Origin: Dethiosulfovibrio faecalis
Lineage (GTDB): Bacteria > Synergistota > Synergistia > Synergistales > Dethiosulfovibrionaceae
Length of the DNA: 61,223 nucleotides
Assembly (NCBI RefSeq): GCF_021568795.1
Contig: NZ_JAKGUE010000016.1
Span: forward strand, 1-61,223
Direction of reading: 5' to 3'
Under the pieces are notes generated by a model, which made no database searches, was not told the origin of the DNA, and saw nothing but the letters and a program-made list of their open reading frames with translations. Made by a program: the position numbers and the translations under genes. Positions 48,464 through 58,668 of this stretch are shown in pieces. Positions within the stretch are counted from its first letter, which is position 1; each line of letters starts with the position of its first letter.

Positions 48464-48550
48464 GCCCGGGTGGCGGAATTGGTAGACGCGCTAGATTCAG
48501 GTTCTAGTGGGCATTTGCCTGTAGGAGTTCGAGTCTCCTCCCGGGCACCA
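48464..48550 (+). tRNA. tRNA-Leu (anticodon CAG)
   Basis: An 87-nt class II tRNA with a long variable arm and encoded CCA. The acceptor GCCCGGG pairs with CCCGGGC and the discriminator is A, as required for leucyl-tRNA synthetase. The anticodon stem CTAGA/TCTAG encloses TTCAGGT, giving CAG, which reads CUG. It is a single gene just upstream of rpoB. Confidence 0.96.
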
Positions 48551-48594
48551 TCCAATAGGGGTGCTATGCACGATTGGATCGCCAAGTGTGTATC

Positions 48595-48631
48595 AGGTCG
48601 TATTGTGTCGTTGACATAATGCGACCTTTTT
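48595..48631 (+). terminator. Terminator after tRNA-Leu, carrying the rpoB -35 box
   Basis: AGGTCGTATTGTGT (48595-48608) pairs with ACATAATGCGACCT (48614-48627), a 14-bp stem with G-U wobbles and a 5-base loop, followed by TTTTT. The TTGACA of the next promoter spans the loop and the start of the 3' arm. Confidence 0.85.
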
Positions 48632-48639
48632 GTTATTTT
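48611..48639 (+). promoter_or_regulatory. rpoBC promoter embedded in the terminator
   Basis: Consensus -35 TTGACA (48611-48616), a 17-base spacer, and an extended -10 (TGT then TATTTT, 48634-48639). Transcription would begin near 48646, giving a leader of about 57 nt to rpoB. The element at 57448-57476 has the same layout. Confidence 0.7.
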
Positions 48640-48702: not shown

Positions 48703-51700
48703 ATGGCCGAATTCGTACCCGTGGGCAAAAAGCGCAGCCGCCTCACCTTTGGGCGTGTCCGAGATCTAGTGGAGATCCCGGATATGGTCGAGGTGCAGCG
48801 AGATTCCTACCGAAGCTTTTTTCAGGAGGATGTCGATCCCGACAAAAGGGACAGCGTAGGGCTTCAGGAACTTCTCGACGAGATTTTCCCGATTGAAAGT
48901 TACGACGGCTCCTTTGCCCTGGAGTTCGTCCGATACTATCTGGACAGGCCAGCCACCACACAGGAGGAGTCGCAACAGAAGGACTGTACCTGGCATCGGC
49001 CCGTCCGAGCCACCATAAGACTCGTAAACAGGAAGAACCTGGAGATCAAGGAAGAGGAGATCTTTCTCGGCGACTTTCCGATGATGACAGAGAGGGGAAC
49101 CTTCATCATCAACGGAACCGAAAGGGTCGTCGTCAATCAGCTTGCCCGCTCCGCGGGGATCTACTTCAAGGTGGACTATTCCGCTCCGGTGGCCGAGACC
49201 TTCACCGCAAAGATAATCCCCGATAGAGGGGCCTGGCTGGAGTTTGCCATGGGGAGCGGAGATGCTCTCCACGTCAATATAGACAACCGTAAGAAACTTC
49301 CCGGAACCCTTCTTCTAAAGGCTTTCGGAGTCTCGTCCAACGAGGAGATGCTTCGTCTTTTCGGGGGGGAGATAGAGGAGGTCGACATATCGGAGGAGCT
49401 TCTGATCGGCAGGCTTCTCGGCGAGACCGTATTGGACGAGAGCGGAAACGTCGTAATCCGCAAGGAGGAGCGTATCGGGAAGGAAGAGCTAGAACGGCTC
49501 TGGGATCTCGGTCGGACTAGGGTAAAGGTATGGGACGTCAACCCCGTTTTCGCCGCTACCTTGGAGAAGGATTTTACCAACAACAGCGACGAGGCTATGT
49601 TGGAGATATTCCGCAGGCTTCGTCCTAACGATCCGGCCAGAATAGAGAACGCCAGAGAGTACATAGACAGCCTGTTCTTCGATTCCCGTCGTTATACTCT
49701 GGGCCGTGTCGGTCGTTACAAGCTCAACAGACGGCTGAAGCTGGACCTTCCCGACAGGGAGTACCTGCTCACGATAGACGACCTGGTGAGAATCGTCAAG
49801 GGAATAATCGTCCTCAGGGACACGGAGGAGCAGAGGGACGTGGTCTCCTTCCCCGACGTCACCGAGGAGTTCCCCGACGATATCGACCACCTCGGCAACA
49901 GAAGGGTCCGTTCCGTAGGCGAGCTTCTTCAGAATCAGGTCAGAATAGGCCTTCTGCGGATGGAGAGAAGAGCCAAAGAGCGTATGACCACCGTGGCGGA
50001 TCTCACCAAGGCAATGGCCAGGGACCTCATAAACGTCAGGCCCATATCGGCGGCCCTCAGGGAGTTCTTCGGTTCGGGGCAGCTGTCGCAGTACATGGAC
50101 CAGAACAACCCCCTGTCCGAACTGACCCACAGGCGGAGGCTTTCCGCCCTGGGACCGGGAGGTCTTAGCAGAGAAAGGGCTGGCTTCGAGGCTAGAGACG
50201 TCCATTACACCCACTATGGCCGTATCTGCCCCATCGAGACCCCCGAGGGGCCCAATATCGGGTTGGTCACGTCTCTGTCTACCTATTCAAAGGTCAACCA
50301 ATACGGTTTCCTGGTTACCCCTCGTCGTCCCGTGGCAGAGGGCGTTGTATCGTTGAATCCCGAGGACGTCGTCTACCTGGCAGCGGACGAGGAGGACAAC
50401 GCCTACGTGGGAAGGGCTAATACCCCTTACGACGAAAGTACCGGTCGTCTTTCCGAGGAGTACTGCTACGCCCGTTACAGAGGGCGCATAGTCGAGGTTC
50501 CTAAGGAGAAGATCGACTATCTGGACATATCTCCTAAGCAGATCGTCTCTGCCTCGACGGCTTTGATCCCTTTTCTGGAGCATGACGATGCCAATAGAGC
50601 CTTGATGGGCTCGAACATGCAACGTCAGGCCGTCCCGCTTCTACTTCCAGAGGCTCCGAGGGTCGGGACCGGCATGGAGGGCAGGATAGCAAAGGACTCT
50701 GGCTCCTGCGTGGTGGCTCCAGAGGACGGAGTAGTCACCTATGTAGACGCAGATAGAATAGAGATAAGAAGCGACCTGGGAGTATATCGTTCCATGTCTC
50801 TTCAGAAGTTCAAGAGGTCCAATCAGGGTACCATCATCCATCAGAAGCCTACGGTCTCGAAGGGCGATGTCGTCTCCAAAGGCGAGATAATGGCCGACGG
50901 GCAGTCGGTGGACCAGGGAGAGCTGGCTCTTGGACGCAACGTTCTCATTGCCTTTATTCCCTGGGAGGGGTACAACTACGAGGATGCCATCCTCCTCAGC
51001 GAGAGATTGGTAAAGGAGGATTTCTTTACCTCCATACACATAGAGGAATACGAGATGGACGCCAGGGACACCAAGCTCGGGCCGGAGGAGATAACCAGGG
51101 ATATCCCGAACGTCGGAGAGGACGCGCTTAAAGACCTCGACGAGTTCGGAGTGGTTCGCGTCGGAGCCGAGGTCAACGCCGGGGATATCCTGGTCGGAAA
51201 GGTGACCCCCAAGGGCGAGTCGGATCAGTCTCCGGAGGAGAAGTTGCTCAGGGCCATCTTCGGCGAAAAAGCCAGAGAGGTCAGGGACACGTCACTTCAC
51301 GTTCCCCATGGAGCCAGAGGAAAGGTCGTCGCGGTCAAGAAACTGAACAAGGACGAGAATAGCGACTCCCTCAGTCCCGGTGTCAACGAGGTGGTCAAGG
51401 TCTACGTGGCCCAGCTCAGGAAGATCACCGTCGGAGACAAGATGTCCGGACGTCACGGCAACAAGGGGGTCGTTTCCAGGGTCCTTCCCGTAGAGGATAT
51501 GCCCTATCTTCCCGACGGAACTCCCGTGGACGTCTGCCTCAACCCCCTCGGGGTTCCGAGTCGAATGAACCTCGGACAGGTTCTCGAGACCATACTTGCC
51601 ACCGTGGCAGTTGCCAACGACTGGCACGTAGCTACTCCGGTTTTCGAAGGGGCACAGGAAGACGAGATCTACGATCTGCTCGATAAACTCAGTCAGGAGA

Positions 51701-52416
51701 ACCCGGACTACTCCTCTCTGACCAGAGGCGGGACCATGCAGCTCATAGACGGTAGAACCGGGGAGCCCATGGAGTACAAGACCACCGTTGGGCACATGTA
51801 CATGCTGAAGCTTAATCACCTGGTGGACGATAAACTGCACGCTCGATCCATAGGACCTTACAGTCTCATAACCCAACAGCCTCTGGGCGGTAAGGCCCAG
51901 TTCGGCGGACAGCGCTTCGGAGAGATGGAGGTCTGGGCCCTTCAGGGGTACGGAGCCGCTCATGTCCTTCAGGAAATGTTGACGGTAAAATCCGACGATA
52001 TCCACGGTCGACTCAAGACCTACGAGAAAATCGTAAAAGGTCAGAATCTGACCAGGCCGGGGGTTCCCGAGAGCTTCAAGGTTCTTGTAAAAGAGCTCGA
52101 GGGGCTGGGCTTGGGGGTCGATATAGAGTACAACGACGGCACCATCGGTCCTCTTCTTCCCGACGAGGACGACGAACAGAGCAACTCCGCTCCCATTCCG
52201 CCCAAGGTGGAGGTCGTTCCGGCCGTTGCTCCGGAGGCGGCATCTGCTCCTACACCGAAGGAGATGGAGGAGATGATCTTCGGGAACGGAGAGCCCAGCG
52301 CCAAGGAAGATAATGCCTCCGACAAGGGGCAAAACGACGGCGATGAGGTGTCGACGGAGAACGCCTCGGATAGTTCCACAGTCGAGAACGATGATGCGAA
52401 AGGAGCTGACCGCTAA
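48703..52416 (+). CDS. rpoB: RNA polymerase beta subunit
   Basis: 1237 residues. Forms the catalytic centre with beta'. The rifampicin region (about residues 455-487, [20 protein letters not shown]) matches the wild-type sensitive sequence, and the downstream [32 protein letters not shown] and [19 protein letters not shown] blocks are intact. After the conserved end (about residue 1155) there is an 80-residue low-complexity tail rich in Asp, Glu, Ser, Ala and Pro. The large E. coli insertions are absent. GGGAGG precedes ATG 48703. It is not preceded by rplJ-rplL. Confidence 0.98.
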
Positions 52417-52418
52417 CG

Positions 52419-55400
52419 ATGACCCGTCGCGAGATCGTCGGAGTCAGGGTACGTCTTGCCAGTCCCGGAGAGATAAGGGGACTTTCCACCGGAGAGGTCA
52501 AGAAACCCGAGACCATCAACTACCGGACCTTGAGGCCCGAGAAAGACGGCCTTTTCTGCGAGCGTATCTTCGGACCCACTAAAAGTTTTGAATGCGCCTG
52601 CGGCAAGTACAAGAAAAGCGGTCCGAAATTCAAGGGCGTGATATGCGATCGATGCGGCGTGGAGGTCACAGATAACCGCGTTCGTCGAGAGAGAATGGGC
52701 CACATCGAGCTGGCCGCCCCTGTCGTCCATATATGGTATCTCCGGGGAATCCCCAGCAGACTCAGTCTGTTGCTGGGTACCGCCACGAAGATGCTGGAGA
52801 AGGTGGTCTACTTCGCTCCCATCAGAAAAAGGGAGCCGGCCTTCAAGGTAGTCATAGAGGGCAAGAGATCCGATCTCGCCAAGAGGGGAGACGTGGTCTC
52901 CGAAAGCGAGGTCAGACTTCATTGTCATTACGACCCGAAGTTCAAGGCAGAGGAGGCCTATAGGGTCGTATCGGTCGACGATGTCCCCATATCGGAGGGC
53001 GACATCGTATCGTCCTCTCAGATAAGTCGTTACAAGGCCGATTACGGCGACGAATCCTTTTCCGCCGAGCCTGCCTTTGTCGTGAAAGGCTGCGGCGAGG
53101 GAGTCGAGATCGAGCTCGAGTCGATCCTGTCCGGAGATGAATATCGGTCGTTAAAAGAAGAAGGGCTGGACGTAACGGTAGAGAGGGCCATGTCGGGCAA
53201 CCAGGAGGGGTTTGTCGTCACGTCGGTTGCCAAGCTCCCTTTCTCTAAGGGTGACGTTATATCCACCAGCGAGTTCAACCTCTTTCAGGAGCGCTATCCG
53301 GAACGCTTTACCGCTCAGCTCGAGACGGTGGTCGTGGAGGATCCCTGTTTCCTGGTGATAGACGGCAGCGAGTCCCCCTTCGACGACGGTGACGTGATAC
53401 TGGACAGAGAACAGCATCTCTGTAGCCACTACGACAAGAAATTTCGAGCCGGCATAGGTGCGGAAGGTGTCAGGGAGATGCTCGATACCCTGGACATGGA
53501 CCACCTGGCCCAGGAACTCAGGGAAGAGTTATCCGAGACTTCCGGCCAGAAACGTCGAAAGTTGGTCAAGAGACTCCAGGTCGTAGAGGATTTTCGCAAG
53601 GGTGATTGCAACCCTCAATCCATGGTGCTCGAGGTTCTGCCGGTCATACCTCCGGACCTTCGTCCCATGGTTCAGCTCGACGGAGGGCGTTTTGCCACCT
53701 CGGACCTTAACGACCTGTATCGCAGGGTCATAAACAGAAACAACCGACTGAGAAAGCTCCAGGAACTCAGGGCTCCGGAGATAATAGTCAGGAACGAAAA
53801 GAGGATGCTCCAGGAGTCGGTCGACGCGCTGATCGACAACGGTAGAATGGGCAAGGCGGTGCTGGGGGCCGGCAATCGTCCCCTCAAGAGTCTCTCCGAT
53901 TTGTTGAGAGGTAAGAAGGGGCGTTTCCGTCAGAATTTGCTCGGTAAGCGAGTGGACTACTCCGGTCGTTCTGTTATAACGATAGGGCCCAATTTAAAGA
54001 TATACCAGTGCGGCCTTCCCAAGCAGATGGCTCTGGAGCTGTTCAAGCCCTTCGTAATACAGAAACTGGTGGATCTAGGCATAGCTCCGAACGTCAAGAG
54101 CGGCAAAAGGATGATCGAAAGAGGCAAGGAGGAGATCTGGGCCATTCTGGAGGAGATCATAAAGGATCACCCCGTGATGCTGAACAGAGCTCCTACGCTT
54201 CACAGATTGGGCATCCAGGCCTTCGAGCCTGTCTTGATGGAGGGTAAGGCCATACGGCTTCACCCCTTGGTCTGTACAGCTTTCAACGCCGATTTCGACG
54301 GAGATCAGATGGCAGTACACGTACCTCTCTCCGTGGAAGCCCAGGCGGAGGCCAGGATGCTCATGCTCTCCGCCAACAACATACTCTCCCCCGCCAGCGG
54401 GAAGCCCATAGTGGCTCCCTCGCAGGACATAATATTGGGGATATATTACCTGACCAATCTCAGAGAGGGTATGACCGGAGAGGGCAAATACTTTGATAGC
54501 TTCGACGACGTTTTAACCGCTCTGGATCACGGGGTTGTGCATGTGAACGCCAGAATTCGCATGAGATGGAACCACGAATGGGGTAACTGGAAGGACAAGG
54601 TCGCTCAATGGGGAGTCTCCTTCCTGGACGAAAACGGAAAATGGTTCGAGACCTCGCCGGGAAGGGTCCTTTTCAACAGCTATCTCCCTAAAAAACTTCG
54701 ATTCCTCGACGGTCAGCTGGGCAAGAAGGATCTCAGCAGGTTGCTGGACCTCGGTTACAACCAGGTCTCCCGTCAGGAAATGGTCGAGATGTTGGACTCT
54801 ATAAAGGGGCTCGGCTATCACTGGGCTACCCTGAGTGGTATAAGCTTCTGCGTCACCGACGTCGTAATACCCAAGGAAAAAGAGGACGTGGTCTCCACTT
54901 CTCTGGTAGAGGACGACGAGATAAGAAACCAGTACGATATGGGGGTTCTTTCGGAGGACGAATACCTCCTTCAGAAGGAGACCCTGTGGTCCAAGGCGGC
55001 CGCCGATGTCGGAAACGCAATCCTGAACCACATGGGGCACGATAACCCGGTCAGGATGATGGTGGACTCCGGAGCCAGGGGAAGCCGAGGACAGCTGGCT
55101 CAGATGGCCGGAATCCGAGGCCTTATGGCCGACCCGACCGGTCGAATAATAGATTACCCCATCACCACCAACTTCCGTGAGGGAATGAACATGTTGGAGT
55201 ATTTTATCTCCACTCATGGAGCCAGAAAGGGGCTGGCCGATACCGCTCTTCGTACGGCCAAGTCTGGTTATCTGACCCGACGTCTCGTCGATGTATCTCA
55301 GGACGTCATAATAACCGAGGAAGACTGTGGAACGGACAAAGGTGTCAAGATAGAGCCTTTGGAGAGCGACGGCAAGACGGTCATCCCCATCAGCGAGAGG

Positions 55401-57401
55401 ATAGCCGGCAGGACGTCTCTTAACGATGTCAACGATCCCGAGACCGGAGATCTTATAGTCGGAGCCGGTGAGATCATAACTCCGGATCTGGCTTCCCGGA
55501 TAGATTCCTGCGGATTCAAGGAGATCTGGGTAAGAAGCCCCATGACCTGCACAACCAGACACGGTATATGTCAGAAGTGCTACGGTGTCGACCTGGCTAC
55601 CCGTTCCGTCGTCGACATAGGAGAGGCTGTAGGGGTCGTTGCCGCCCAGTCTATCGGTGAACCTGGAACCCAGCTCACCATGAGGACCTTCCATACCGGG
55701 GGAGTCAGGATTACCGGTGAGGACATCACCCAGGGGCTTCCGAGGATAGAGCAGCTTTTCGAGGCCCGTCGTCCCAAAAAAGTCTCCGTCCTTGCCGGTG
55801 TGGACGGCAAGGTGATCGAAATTCGGGAGATGGAGGGCAAGCGCAAGGTAATAATAACCTCCGAGGAGCCCGGGAACGAACAGAAGATCACCCACACCAT
55901 CCCTTCGTCGCAGAACCTTCTGGTCGAAGAGGGCGAGCCTGTCTACCGTTCGACGAAGCTGACAGAGGGCTATATCGATCCTCAGCAACTTCTCGAGGTG
56001 CTTGGACAGGAAGAGGTTCAGAAATACCTGGTGGACAGCATTCAGGAGGTCTACCGATCTCAAGGCGTCTCCATCAACAACAAACATATAGAGGTAATCC
56101 TCAGAAAGGTCGCTCCTGTTAACAGACTGAGGGTCGTCGATGAAGGGGACACAGCCTTCGTGGCTGGAGATCTGGTCTGGGCCGGTGACGTGGAGGCCGA
56201 GGAAAAGGTAATACTGGAGGAAAACGAGAACAACATACACGAGGCGGTCAAGATCTTCTCCGGTAAAATCTTCCAGGGAATTGCCGGAGCCGTCAAAACG
56301 GATCTGAGCAAGAAAAAAGATCAGCCCATGGACGAGGAGCTCATAAGGTCGATCCTGACTCCTGGAGCGCCGGTGACGGAGATAAACGTGACCGATGAGG
56401 TCGGACCTCTTAGGATCGTGGCGGGAGAGGCCTCTTTCAGAAAAGAGCTCAAGGGATTCGAGCTTATCGATCCCTTCGAATCCAGGGATGGAAAGGTCGT
56501 CGAATCGGGGCAGCCTCTTACACTTGGACAGTTGTCGGTGGTGACCTCTCAGGAACCCCGACCCTTGAGGGTCAGGGACGTGGAGGTAATAGAGAAGCTG
56601 GTTGACTCGGCCTATCTTGCGGAGGACGTCGTGGTGGACGGTCAAGCCGTCGCCCTCAAGGACCATATGGTCACGGAGGAAATAGCCGCATTGTTAAGGA
56701 TAAACGACGTGCCCTCCGTCAAGGTATGGAAGGGGATCGAGAGGATCAGTGTCTCCGATGCAATGCAGGAAAGACTCCTGGCCAGGATATGGGGTAAACC
56801 TCTGAGGCAGGCCATAGATTCCCAGGGCAATGCGTTATCCTCAAGGCCTCAGCTCGTCGACGGCAGCGTAGTTCGAGGGATAATAGACGGAGATCTTGCG
56901 GCCATCTCGATAGGTGAGGATATAATCACGAGGGAGAACATCCTCAAGGAGGTCATAGCTGAGACCTGTTATGGAAAGGTCCTGCTGGACAGGGTAGAGG
57001 TTGACGGAAGGATCGCAGCCGACTCAGGCCAGGAGATAAATAAAACCCTTCTGGATGAGTTGGTCGCAGCTGATCCGGAGGAACTGGTCATAAGGCCTAT
57101 TCACTGTAACAACGAGACCAGAAACATAGTCTCCAGAGTTACCTTCGTTCGCAAGCTCAGGCAAAACCCCGAGTGCCGGAAGTTCATTCACGGCATAACG
57201 AAAGCCGCTCTGGCCACGGACAGTTTCCTGAGTGCGGCGTCCTTCCAGCAGACTGCTCAGGTACTGGCTGGTGCAGCGGTCCGTTGTCAGGTCGATAACC
57301 TCGTAGGTTTGAAGGAGAACGTGATAATCGGTCACCTCATCCCGGCTGGAACGGGAGTGGAGGATTTCCGAAAGATCGCGGTCAACGAAAAAGAGTCCTA
57401 A
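52419..57401 (+). CDS. rpoC: RNA polymerase beta' subunit
   Basis: 1660 residues, much longer than the ~1200 of Firmicutes or 1407 of E. coli and close to the Thermotoga size. The N-terminal zinc site (C59, C61, C76, C79) is followed by an insertion at ~140-345 made of four repeats. Then come the clamp, the catalytic NADFDGDQM (from residue 623), the bridge and trigger-loop region ([20 protein letters not shown]), a second zinc site ([13 protein letters not shown]) and a jaw region with more SBHM-like material. The start is 3 bases after rpoB; AAAGGAG is 13 bases upstream. Confidence 0.98.
52842..53450 (+). repeat. Four imperfect ~35-residue repeats in the RpoC insertion
   Basis: Residues 142-344 hold four copies of a pattern: aromatic, V-[VI], 8-12 residues, G-D-[VI]-[VI], about 11 residues, Y, 3-4 residues, F-x-A. 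The GD pairs are at 157, 194, 278 and 324; the F-x-A at 175, 214, 297 and 342. The location between the N-terminal zinc site and the conserved core matches the NCD1 insertion of Thermus and Thermotoga beta', built from sandwich-barrel hybrid motifs. The repeats have diverged and are not visible as DNA repeats. Confidence 0.7.
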
Positions 57402-57428
57402 AAACGAATAATCTTTCGAAATAAAGCT

Positions 57429-57466
57429 CGACCTGGTGTTATGTTTCTTGACATAGCATCAGGTCG
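57429..57466 (+). terminator. Strong hairpin after rpoC (terminator-like), carrying a -35 box
   Basis: CGACCTGGTGTTATG (57429-57443) pairs with CATAGCATCAGGTCG (57452-57466), 15 continuous pairs including two G-U, with an 8-base loop. The following TTGTTATCATT is only partly U-rich, so termination is probably incomplete. The loop and 3' arm contain TTGACA. Confidence 0.7.
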
Positions 57467-57476
57467 TTGTTATCAT
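57448..57476 (+). promoter_or_regulatory. Promoter of the L7Ae-rpsL-rpsG-fusA-tuf operon
   Basis: Perfect -35 TTGACA (57448-57453), a 17-base spacer and an extended -10 (TGT then TATCAT, 57471-57476). It is the best-scoring promoter in the window. The start site near 57483 gives a leader of about 25 nt. Confidence 0.8.
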
Positions 57477-57507
57477 TACCCGGTGCCTATGCTCAGGAGG
57501 TTTTATG

Positions 57508-57801
57508 ATGAACGTAGCGGAGTTGGCCGAGGGTAGACGATTAGTCGGTTTCAAACAGGTCCGTCGCGAGCTTTCGAGGGACAACGTCCGTAAAGTCTTC
57601 ATCGCTGCCGACGCCGACGTTTCGATGATTCAGGAGATTTCCCGTATGTGTTCCGAGCGAGGGGTTCCTATGGAGACGGTCGAGTCTATGGCATCTCTGG
57701 GTAGGGCTTGCGTCATAGATAGGGGCGCAGCTACTGCGGCTTTGCAGCGGACGACCGCTGTTAAGAAAGCATATAAGAATATCTGGAAGGAGGTAACGTA
57801 G
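57508..57801 (+). CDS. rplGB: L7Ae/L30e-like ribosomal protein
   Basis: 97 residues of the L7Ae/L30e/S12e/Gadd45 fold ([28 protein letters not shown]), homologous to B. subtilis YbxF, a k-turn RNA-binding protein found at this place between rpoC and rpsL. Its exact role on the ribosome is unsettled. ATG 57508 fits the GGAGG (57496-57500) better than ATG 57505. Its TAG stop shares one base with the rpsL GTG start. Confidence 0.88.
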
Positions 57802-58175
57802 TGCCAACAATCAACCAGCTAGTCCGGAAAGGTCGGAGTGATAAGGTCAAGAAATCCGACTCCCCGGCGTTGCAGAATTGTCCGGCGCGAAGAGGGGTCT
57901 GTACGCGAGTCTATACGATCACTCCAAAGAAGCCTAACTCGGCTTTGAGAAAAGTCGCCCGTGTGCGTCTGACCAACGGTATCGAGGTGACCTCGTACAT
58001 ACCGGGAGTCGGCCATAATCTGCAGGAGCACTCTGTCGTCCTGGTCAGGGGTGGTCGAGTCAAGGACCTTCCCGGTGTGCGCTATCACATCGTACGCGGT
58101 ACCCTTGATTGCGGCGGTGTCGAGGGTCGTCGTCGGAGCCGTTCCAAATACGGTGCCCGTCGTCCCAAGTCCTAA
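57801..58175 (+). CDS. rpsL: 30S ribosomal protein S12
   Basis: 124 residues, in the decoding centre. It starts [12 protein letters not shown] and contains [11 protein letters not shown] and [13 protein letters not shown] with the wild-type lysines at the streptomycin-resistance positions, so no resistance substitution is seen. The GTG start overlaps the upstream TAG by one base; GGAGG lies in the end of the L7Ae-like gene. Confidence 0.98.
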
Positions 58176-58185
58176 AAGGGTATAA

Positions 58186-58668
<483 letters not shown>

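Follow-up and report, generated by a model that had tools for sequence, protein, structure and literature searches.

At the junction between rpoC and the str operon of Dethiosulfovibrio faecalis, one stretch of DNA probably works as a composite element (we put this at roughly 0.7), in which the hairpin that ends the rpoBC transcript, fully or partially, and the promoter of the str operon are built from the same letters, and a second copy of this element lies at the junction between tRNA-Leu and rpoB. Both junctions fall within the window, which is the whole stretch of 61,223 nucleotides taken from this genome. An earlier note on this DNA had proposed that the same letters hold a hairpin closing the rpoBC unit and a near-consensus promoter for str; this was borne out, with both parts conserved in relatives. 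The rpoC-str junction contains the following features.

52419 to 57401, plus strand: rpoC, RNA polymerase beta' subunit, end of the upstream operon (open reading frame list; Pfam RNA_pol_Rpb1 domains)
57429 to 57466, plus strand: str-junction hairpin at the end of the rpoBC unit (17 RNA pairs including two G-U; structure-model hit 57429-57476, E 1.2e-8)
57448 to 57453, plus strand: str -35 element TTGACA, within the hairpin and spanning its loop and 3' arm (sequence)
57468 to 57469, plus strand: TG of the extended -10 of the str promoter (sequence)
57471 to 57476, plus strand: str -10 element TATCAT, doubling as part of the T-rich tail behind the hairpin (sequence)
57482 to 57483, plus strand: predicted transcription start of the str operon (from the position of the -10)
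57495 to 57500, plus strand: AGGAGG ribosome-binding site of the first str gene (sequence)
57505 to 57801, plus strand: L7Ae/L30e-type ribosomal protein, gene 1 of the str operon (open reading frame list; Pfam PF01248)
57801 to 58175, plus strand: rpsL, S12 (open reading frame list; Pfam PF00164)
58198 to 58668, plus strand: rpsG, S7 (open reading frame list; Pfam PF00177)

The rpoC stop codon (57399-57401) and the ATG of the first str gene (57505) are separated by a gap of 103 bases. The hairpin arms in this gap, 57429-57444 and 57451-57466, are 88% complementary at the DNA level, and both mismatches become G-U pairs in the plus-strand RNA, giving 17 pairs around a 4-base loop; the hairpin reported in the earlier note is real, and its length of 15 bp was slightly short. 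Folding of the whole gap as sense RNA gave -33.7 kcal/mol with a z score of -5.5 against dinucleotide shuffles, compared to -1.9 for the reverse strand. The placement of TTGACA in the loop and 3' arm, with an extended -10 (TG and TATCAT) 17 bases on, was likewise confirmed; the spacer lies within the 16 to 18 bases typical of sigma-70-type promoters, and 11 of the 12 consensus bases are present. With a consensus score of 14, this promoter ranked first in the window, the best score in 20 mononucleotide shuffles of the whole window being at most 13; the claim that it is the strongest promoter in the window holds in terms of its match to consensus. A search of positions 57300-57620 against Rfam 15 returned only sub-threshold matches, and the str hairpin fits no family at gathering score. 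Downstream of the -10, at 57480-57500 of the window and in relatives, there is a recurrent short motif, CGGTGC or TGGTGC, and in several relatives its GTGC is able to pair with GCAC just before AGGAGG, as if a small 5' hairpin opened the str mRNA.

Since the rpoB promoter shares the hairpin-embedded design, the str junction is one of a pair, whose other member goes unmentioned in the earlier note. The features of the second junction are given below.

48464 to 48547, plus strand: tRNA-Leu, 5' of rpoB (Rfam tRNA; ARAGORN tRNA-Leu)
48595 to 48627, plus strand: second hairpin of the same design, located 3' of tRNA-Leu and 5' of rpoB, with a strong T-tract behind it (structure-model hit 48593-48639, E 4.4e-7)
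48611 to 48616, plus strand: rpoB promoter -35 element TTGACA, within the second hairpin and spanning its loop and 3' arm (sequence)
48631 to 48639, plus strand: rpoB promoter extended -10, TGTTATTTT, inside the T-tract (sequence)
48703 to 52416, plus strand: rpoB, RNA polymerase beta subunit (open reading frame list; Pfam RNA_pol_Rpb2 domains)

The rpoB promoter match (48611-48639) ranked second in the window by consensus score, and the T-rich tail of its hairpin contains both the TG and the -10. When positions 40000-61223 were searched against Rfam 15, the tRNA was the sole match at gathering score, and neither hairpin corresponded to a known RNA family.

A covariance model was built from 25 sequences, that of D. 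faecalis among them. In the D. faecalis genome, the model placed the two junctions first (57429-57476 with E 1.2e-8 and 48593-48639 with E 4.4e-7), followed by weak hits with E values of 0.037 and 0.30. Over 61 genomes, 61 hits at E of 0.01 or less were found in 42 genomes, 53 of them at rpoB or rpoC-str and eight elsewhere (best E among these 8.6e-4), and all 49 hits below E 5e-4 lay at one of the two junctions. Because the model was built from some of those sites, the scores at the two junctions are partly by construction, and the informative part of the model search is the lack of strong hits away from them. Applied to four genomes of other groups, the model returned only hits with E of 0.005 or worse, which gives its noise level and not absence in other phyla. 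In two scans of the genome_contigs collection, the L7Ae protein had no relative and the RpoC relatives were all distant. Two counts within D. faecalis are consistent with confinement to the two junctions. A sample of 20 stretches of 20 kb plus the window, covering 461 kb of the 2.67 Mb genome, contained 240 terminator-like hairpins, among which only the two window sites carried a convincing fused promoter and one further site a weak match; as far as sampled, a fused promoter-hairpin as a general genome architecture was rejected. The pattern TTGACA-N16-18-TANNNT occurs 78 times in the whole genome, and among the 41 of these sites that were checked, a hairpin was found at three, namely the two window sites and G000:C17:42194-42222 on the minus strand. 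The latter (L184/L281) is a plain-looking terminator hairpin that has TTGACA close to its loop and, after 17 bases, TAACAT; its -10 has no TG, and the match is perhaps due to chance. Another promoter match with TTGACA (L067, G000:C4:3085-3113, minus strand) precedes a tRNA-Ala(GGC) behind an open frame and has a predicted hairpin over its -35; it was dropped as a further fused case, being absent from the covariance-model hits.

Conservation was examined by searching for the RpoC C-terminus in 159 genomes of the order, of which 150 matched. A total of 147 rpoC ends from 145 genomes were extracted, with G057 (contig edge) and G016 left out of this set and G091, G136 and G151 outside the analysis; rpsL lies directly 3' of rpoC in 80 of these places and is absent there in 67. 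For a strict test we required at least eight pairs spanning the -35 together with a z score below -2, and the thresholds of 8 pairs, z of -2 and E of -12 used throughout were of our own choosing. A promoter match was present in all 80 rpoC-str gaps, at least eight predicted pairs spanned the -35 in 62, the z score of the segment was below -2 in 60, and a 6-pair criterion held together with the z criterion in 53. After two adjacent str promoters scoring below 12 were dropped, the strict test was positive at 52 of 78 rpoC-str junctions, so the hairpin described in the earlier note proved to be conserved as a hairpin in related genomes. At 55 of the 56 embedded str sites, the -10 follows the end of the 3' arm at a distance of one to six bases. 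The gene rpoB was present in all 61 genomes searched for it, with tRNA-Leu as the upstream neighbor of the hairpin in most genomes. A loose test was positive for 48 of the 61 upstream regions, of which 45 remain by the same energy test once three with a promoter match below 11 are set aside; with four regions lacking a promoter match and three scoring below 11 dropped from the 61, the strict test was positive at 44 of 54 rpoB promoters. Taken together, the comparison across the genomes indicates that a terminator-like hairpin fused to a promoter is an old, conserved arrangement in many relatives of the order.

The arrangement also varies within the order. The strict test fails at 26 of the 78 adjacent rpoC-str junctions, including most of those in families f10, f2 and f9; family f10 has the hairpin at rpoB and mostly lacks it at str, and in family f9 the rpoB promoter has no hairpin. 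In two rpoC-str gaps of family f10 (L020 and L021), the hairpin predicted covers the -10 and the start region and not the -35. In one genome (G015, L263), a hairpin and T-tract lie just upstream of the rpoB -35 and not over it, which is an unfused arrangement; a tRNA-Leu was looked for upstream of this rpoB and was not found.

A natural experiment is provided by relatives whose str genes are no longer next to rpoC. Of the 67 rpoC ends that lack str, 49 are followed within 220 bases by a plain hairpin and T-rich tail, and TTGAC is absent from all 49 hairpins. The str genes were searched in 30 genomes, nearly all from the group with rpoC lacking an adjacent str, and rpsL was found in 29. Upstream of 27 of the 30 relocated str places there was a promoter match of at least 12, and the three places without one were dropped. 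A hairpin by the strict test was present at one of the 27 relocated str promoters versus 52 of the 78 adjacent ones (Fisher p of 3e-9, uncorrected for relatedness), and a looser energy test gave seven of 27 versus 56 of 78. Because of this difference, promoter and hairpin are separable, and the hairpin tracks the junction and not the promoter. The near absence of the hairpin at relocated str promoters, together with the plain signal at 49 of 67 rpoC ends, points to a hairpin for the upstream end and a promoter for the downstream operon. Most likely, the same bases are used twice, by the hairpin to close the upstream transcript and by the promoter to serve the downstream operon.

Covariation in the stem was analyzed in an alignment of 25 sites in one register (19 from rpoB and six from str), selected for at least 12 pairs. 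In this alignment, 90% of cells were paired versus 67% in shuffles, 13 of 16 pairs showed changes on both sides, and the covariation score over the 25 selected rows was 0.738; shuffles scored 0.260, and sliding the partner gave no more than 0.186. All rows share TTGAC, and in the -10 region they also share the G of TG, the TAT and the final T. A less selected test gave mean pairs out of 16 of 12.93 for rpoB and 10.53 for str, versus 9.20 and 8.79 with shuffled 5' arms and 10.89 and 9.18 with arms swapped between sites.

A comparison of the two strands favors a structure that acts as RNA and not as DNA. Over the segment from -35 to -10, the plus strand folds better than its complement at 52 versus 18 adjacent str sites and at 45 versus 7 rpoB sites; at relocated str promoters the counts are 12 versus 11. 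With the register set by Watson-Crick pairs only, G-U combinations exceed A-C by 60 to 13 at rpoB, and the count of 21 to 23 at str is neutral. A DNA palindrome over the -35 bound by a regulator is for these reasons very improbable: the arms are perfectly palindromic in two relatives (L002 and L003), but the sense strand folds better at most sites, both departures from the palindrome in D. faecalis are G-U in the sense RNA, and the stem letters vary between genera, the 13 pairs that change on both sides being at odds with the conserved arm letters of an operator. The palindrome or operator was rejected on the stem covariation and strand bias, the G-U to A-C count at str being neutral by itself. 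Further evidence on what the RNA hairpin does came from terminator scores. As in intrinsic terminators, the unit closes with a stable RNA hairpin. The T-tract is strong after 48627 and weak after 57466 (TTGTTATCATT), and the scores were +27 for the rpoB hairpin and +1.3 for the str hairpin, with 231 and 187 of the 240 sample hairpins, respectively, scoring lower. Scores above zero were obtained for 32 of 45 fused rpoB hairpins versus 16 of 56 fused str hairpins, and in a second terminator scan the positives numbered 30 among the 45 rpoB sites, 35 among the 67 plain rpoC ends and 13 among the 56 fused str sites. As judged from its letters, the str hairpin is a mediocre terminator; it looks like a compromise in which the -10 occupies the place expected of the T-tract. 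The hairpin goes with the junction, as the relocated cases indicate, but as a stop signal it is weaker than the earlier note stated. The poor U-tract suggests that termination at str is only partial, and some read-through from rpoBC into str would naturally be expected. Such a combination of a strong stem and a weak T-tract would also suit an attenuator or processing hairpin, which lets some polymerases pass or is cut in the read-through RNA and so sets the ratio of polymerase to translation factors. Precedents exist in E. coli, where an attenuator hairpin between rplL and rpoB limits read-through and an RNase III site is present. We regard this reading as rather unlikely, as the rpoB copy has a strong T-tract and a score of +27, and plain hairpin-T signals stand at 49 of the 67 rpoC ends without str. 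Overall, the hairpin in the RNA between neighboring operons probably ends the upstream message.

Why the two parts overlap is a separate matter, on which the free space upstream of the hairpin bears. Simple compaction, in which a gap of about 100 bases had to house both a terminator and a promoter and the two ended up with letters in common, without added function of the overlap, is compatible with the composite element and is the null reading for the overlap; we give it slightly less than even odds. It is in line with the short gaps, where a median of 36.5 free bases separates the rpoC stop from the 5' arm, and with the disappearance of the hairpin where str sits elsewhere. However, 23 of 56 str and 11 of 42 rpoB sites have 45 or more free bases 5' of the hairpin, so a separate terminator would often fit and the overlap appears favored, which is a hint and no proof of function; moreover, the 240 sampled hairpins include only the two window sites with a convincing fused promoter, the third match being weak. 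The same free space, which in many cases does not force overlap, speaks for a hand-over, in which a terminating polymerase stays on the DNA, keeps or regains sigma and restarts at the promoter that it covers, linking tRNA-Leu, rpoBC and str in a relay. At two successive junctions of the same cluster, terminator and promoter lie about zero bases apart, the overlap is retained across many genera, and two in vitro studies (PMC6978380, PMC6978322) show that E. coli RNA polymerase can be retained after intrinsic termination and reinitiate. Nevertheless, the weak T-tract at str would lower the number of terminating polymerases, str promoters elsewhere manage without a hairpin, and the sequence tests used here do not discriminate between a hand-over and simple co-location. 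The hand-over is accordingly considered improbable, and the coupling of termination to initiation suggested in the earlier note is speculative. Equally doubtful is its extension, in which both junctions are relay elements that release polymerase onto the next promoter for a restart, the ratio of RNA polymerase to translation machinery is fixed and the overlap itself is selected.

Under the composite element that we favor, the hairpin and the U-rich stretch would act as RNA to end the rpoBC transcript, in full or in part, and the hairpin loop and 3' arm would provide, as DNA, the -35 of the str promoter, with the T-rich tail providing its extended -10. A polymerase leaving rpoC would stop with its RNA 3' end in the -10 region, at about 57473-57475, and a fresh or retained polymerase would begin the str message about 8 bases further, at about 57482-57483. 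From the anatomy, conservation, covariation, confinement to two places and loss of the hairpin where str does not follow rpoC, all of which are read from the sequence, we infer actual termination, actual initiation and the efficiencies of both.

Terminators and promoters are usually handled as separate parts, and here a deep bacterial lineage appears to have merged both at its RNA polymerase gene junctions and to have retained the merger while most stem bases were replaced. A search of the open-access literature listed no paper that describes a promoter embedded in a conserved terminator hairpin at either rpoB or the rpoC-str junction, which is no proof of absence. Single-molecule work (PMC6978380, PMC6978322) shows that, once intrinsic termination has occurred, E. 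coli polymerase usually remains bound to DNA and is able to initiate again from a promoter close by, and the authors of PMC6978380 hypothesize that clustered operons are served in turn by one polymerase. PMC11347151 reports that 85% of major termination sites in E. coli lie within 1000 bp of a start site. By their sequence layout, the junctions described here are an extreme, conserved case of such closeness, with a distance near zero. They offer a natural system for the in vivo question of whether a polymerase released at a terminator restarts at the next promoter and thereby couples operons, and the relatives with a relocated str are ready-made controls. If a relay were true, the synthesis of RNA polymerase would be linked to that of the translation machinery in a fixed ratio.

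Among known systems, the element resembles an intrinsic (Rho-independent) terminator in that a transcription unit closes with a GC-containing hairpin and T-rich DNA behind it, strongly so at the rpoB site; unlike in such a terminator, the loop, 3' arm and tail double as a near-consensus promoter of the next operon, and the T-tract at str is poor. It likewise resembles a conserved sigma-70-type extended -10 promoter, with TTGACA, 17 bases, TG and TATCAT, and a start codon 28 bases after the -10 in D. faecalis, but the -35 lies within a conserved RNA hairpin of the upstream transcript, outside the promoter's own RNA. The E. coli rplL-rpoB attenuator is similar as a hairpin 5' of rpoB that limits read-through; here, in contrast, it is tRNA-Leu that precedes the hairpin in most genomes, and the rpoB promoter is carried by the hairpin itself. 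Finally, the E. coli single-molecule work on recycling termination and reinitiation (PMC6978380, PMC6978322, PMC11347151) also places a terminator near a downstream promoter where a retained polymerase may restart; it concerns designed templates or genome-wide distances, whereas the junctions of this order combine a distance of about zero with conservation.
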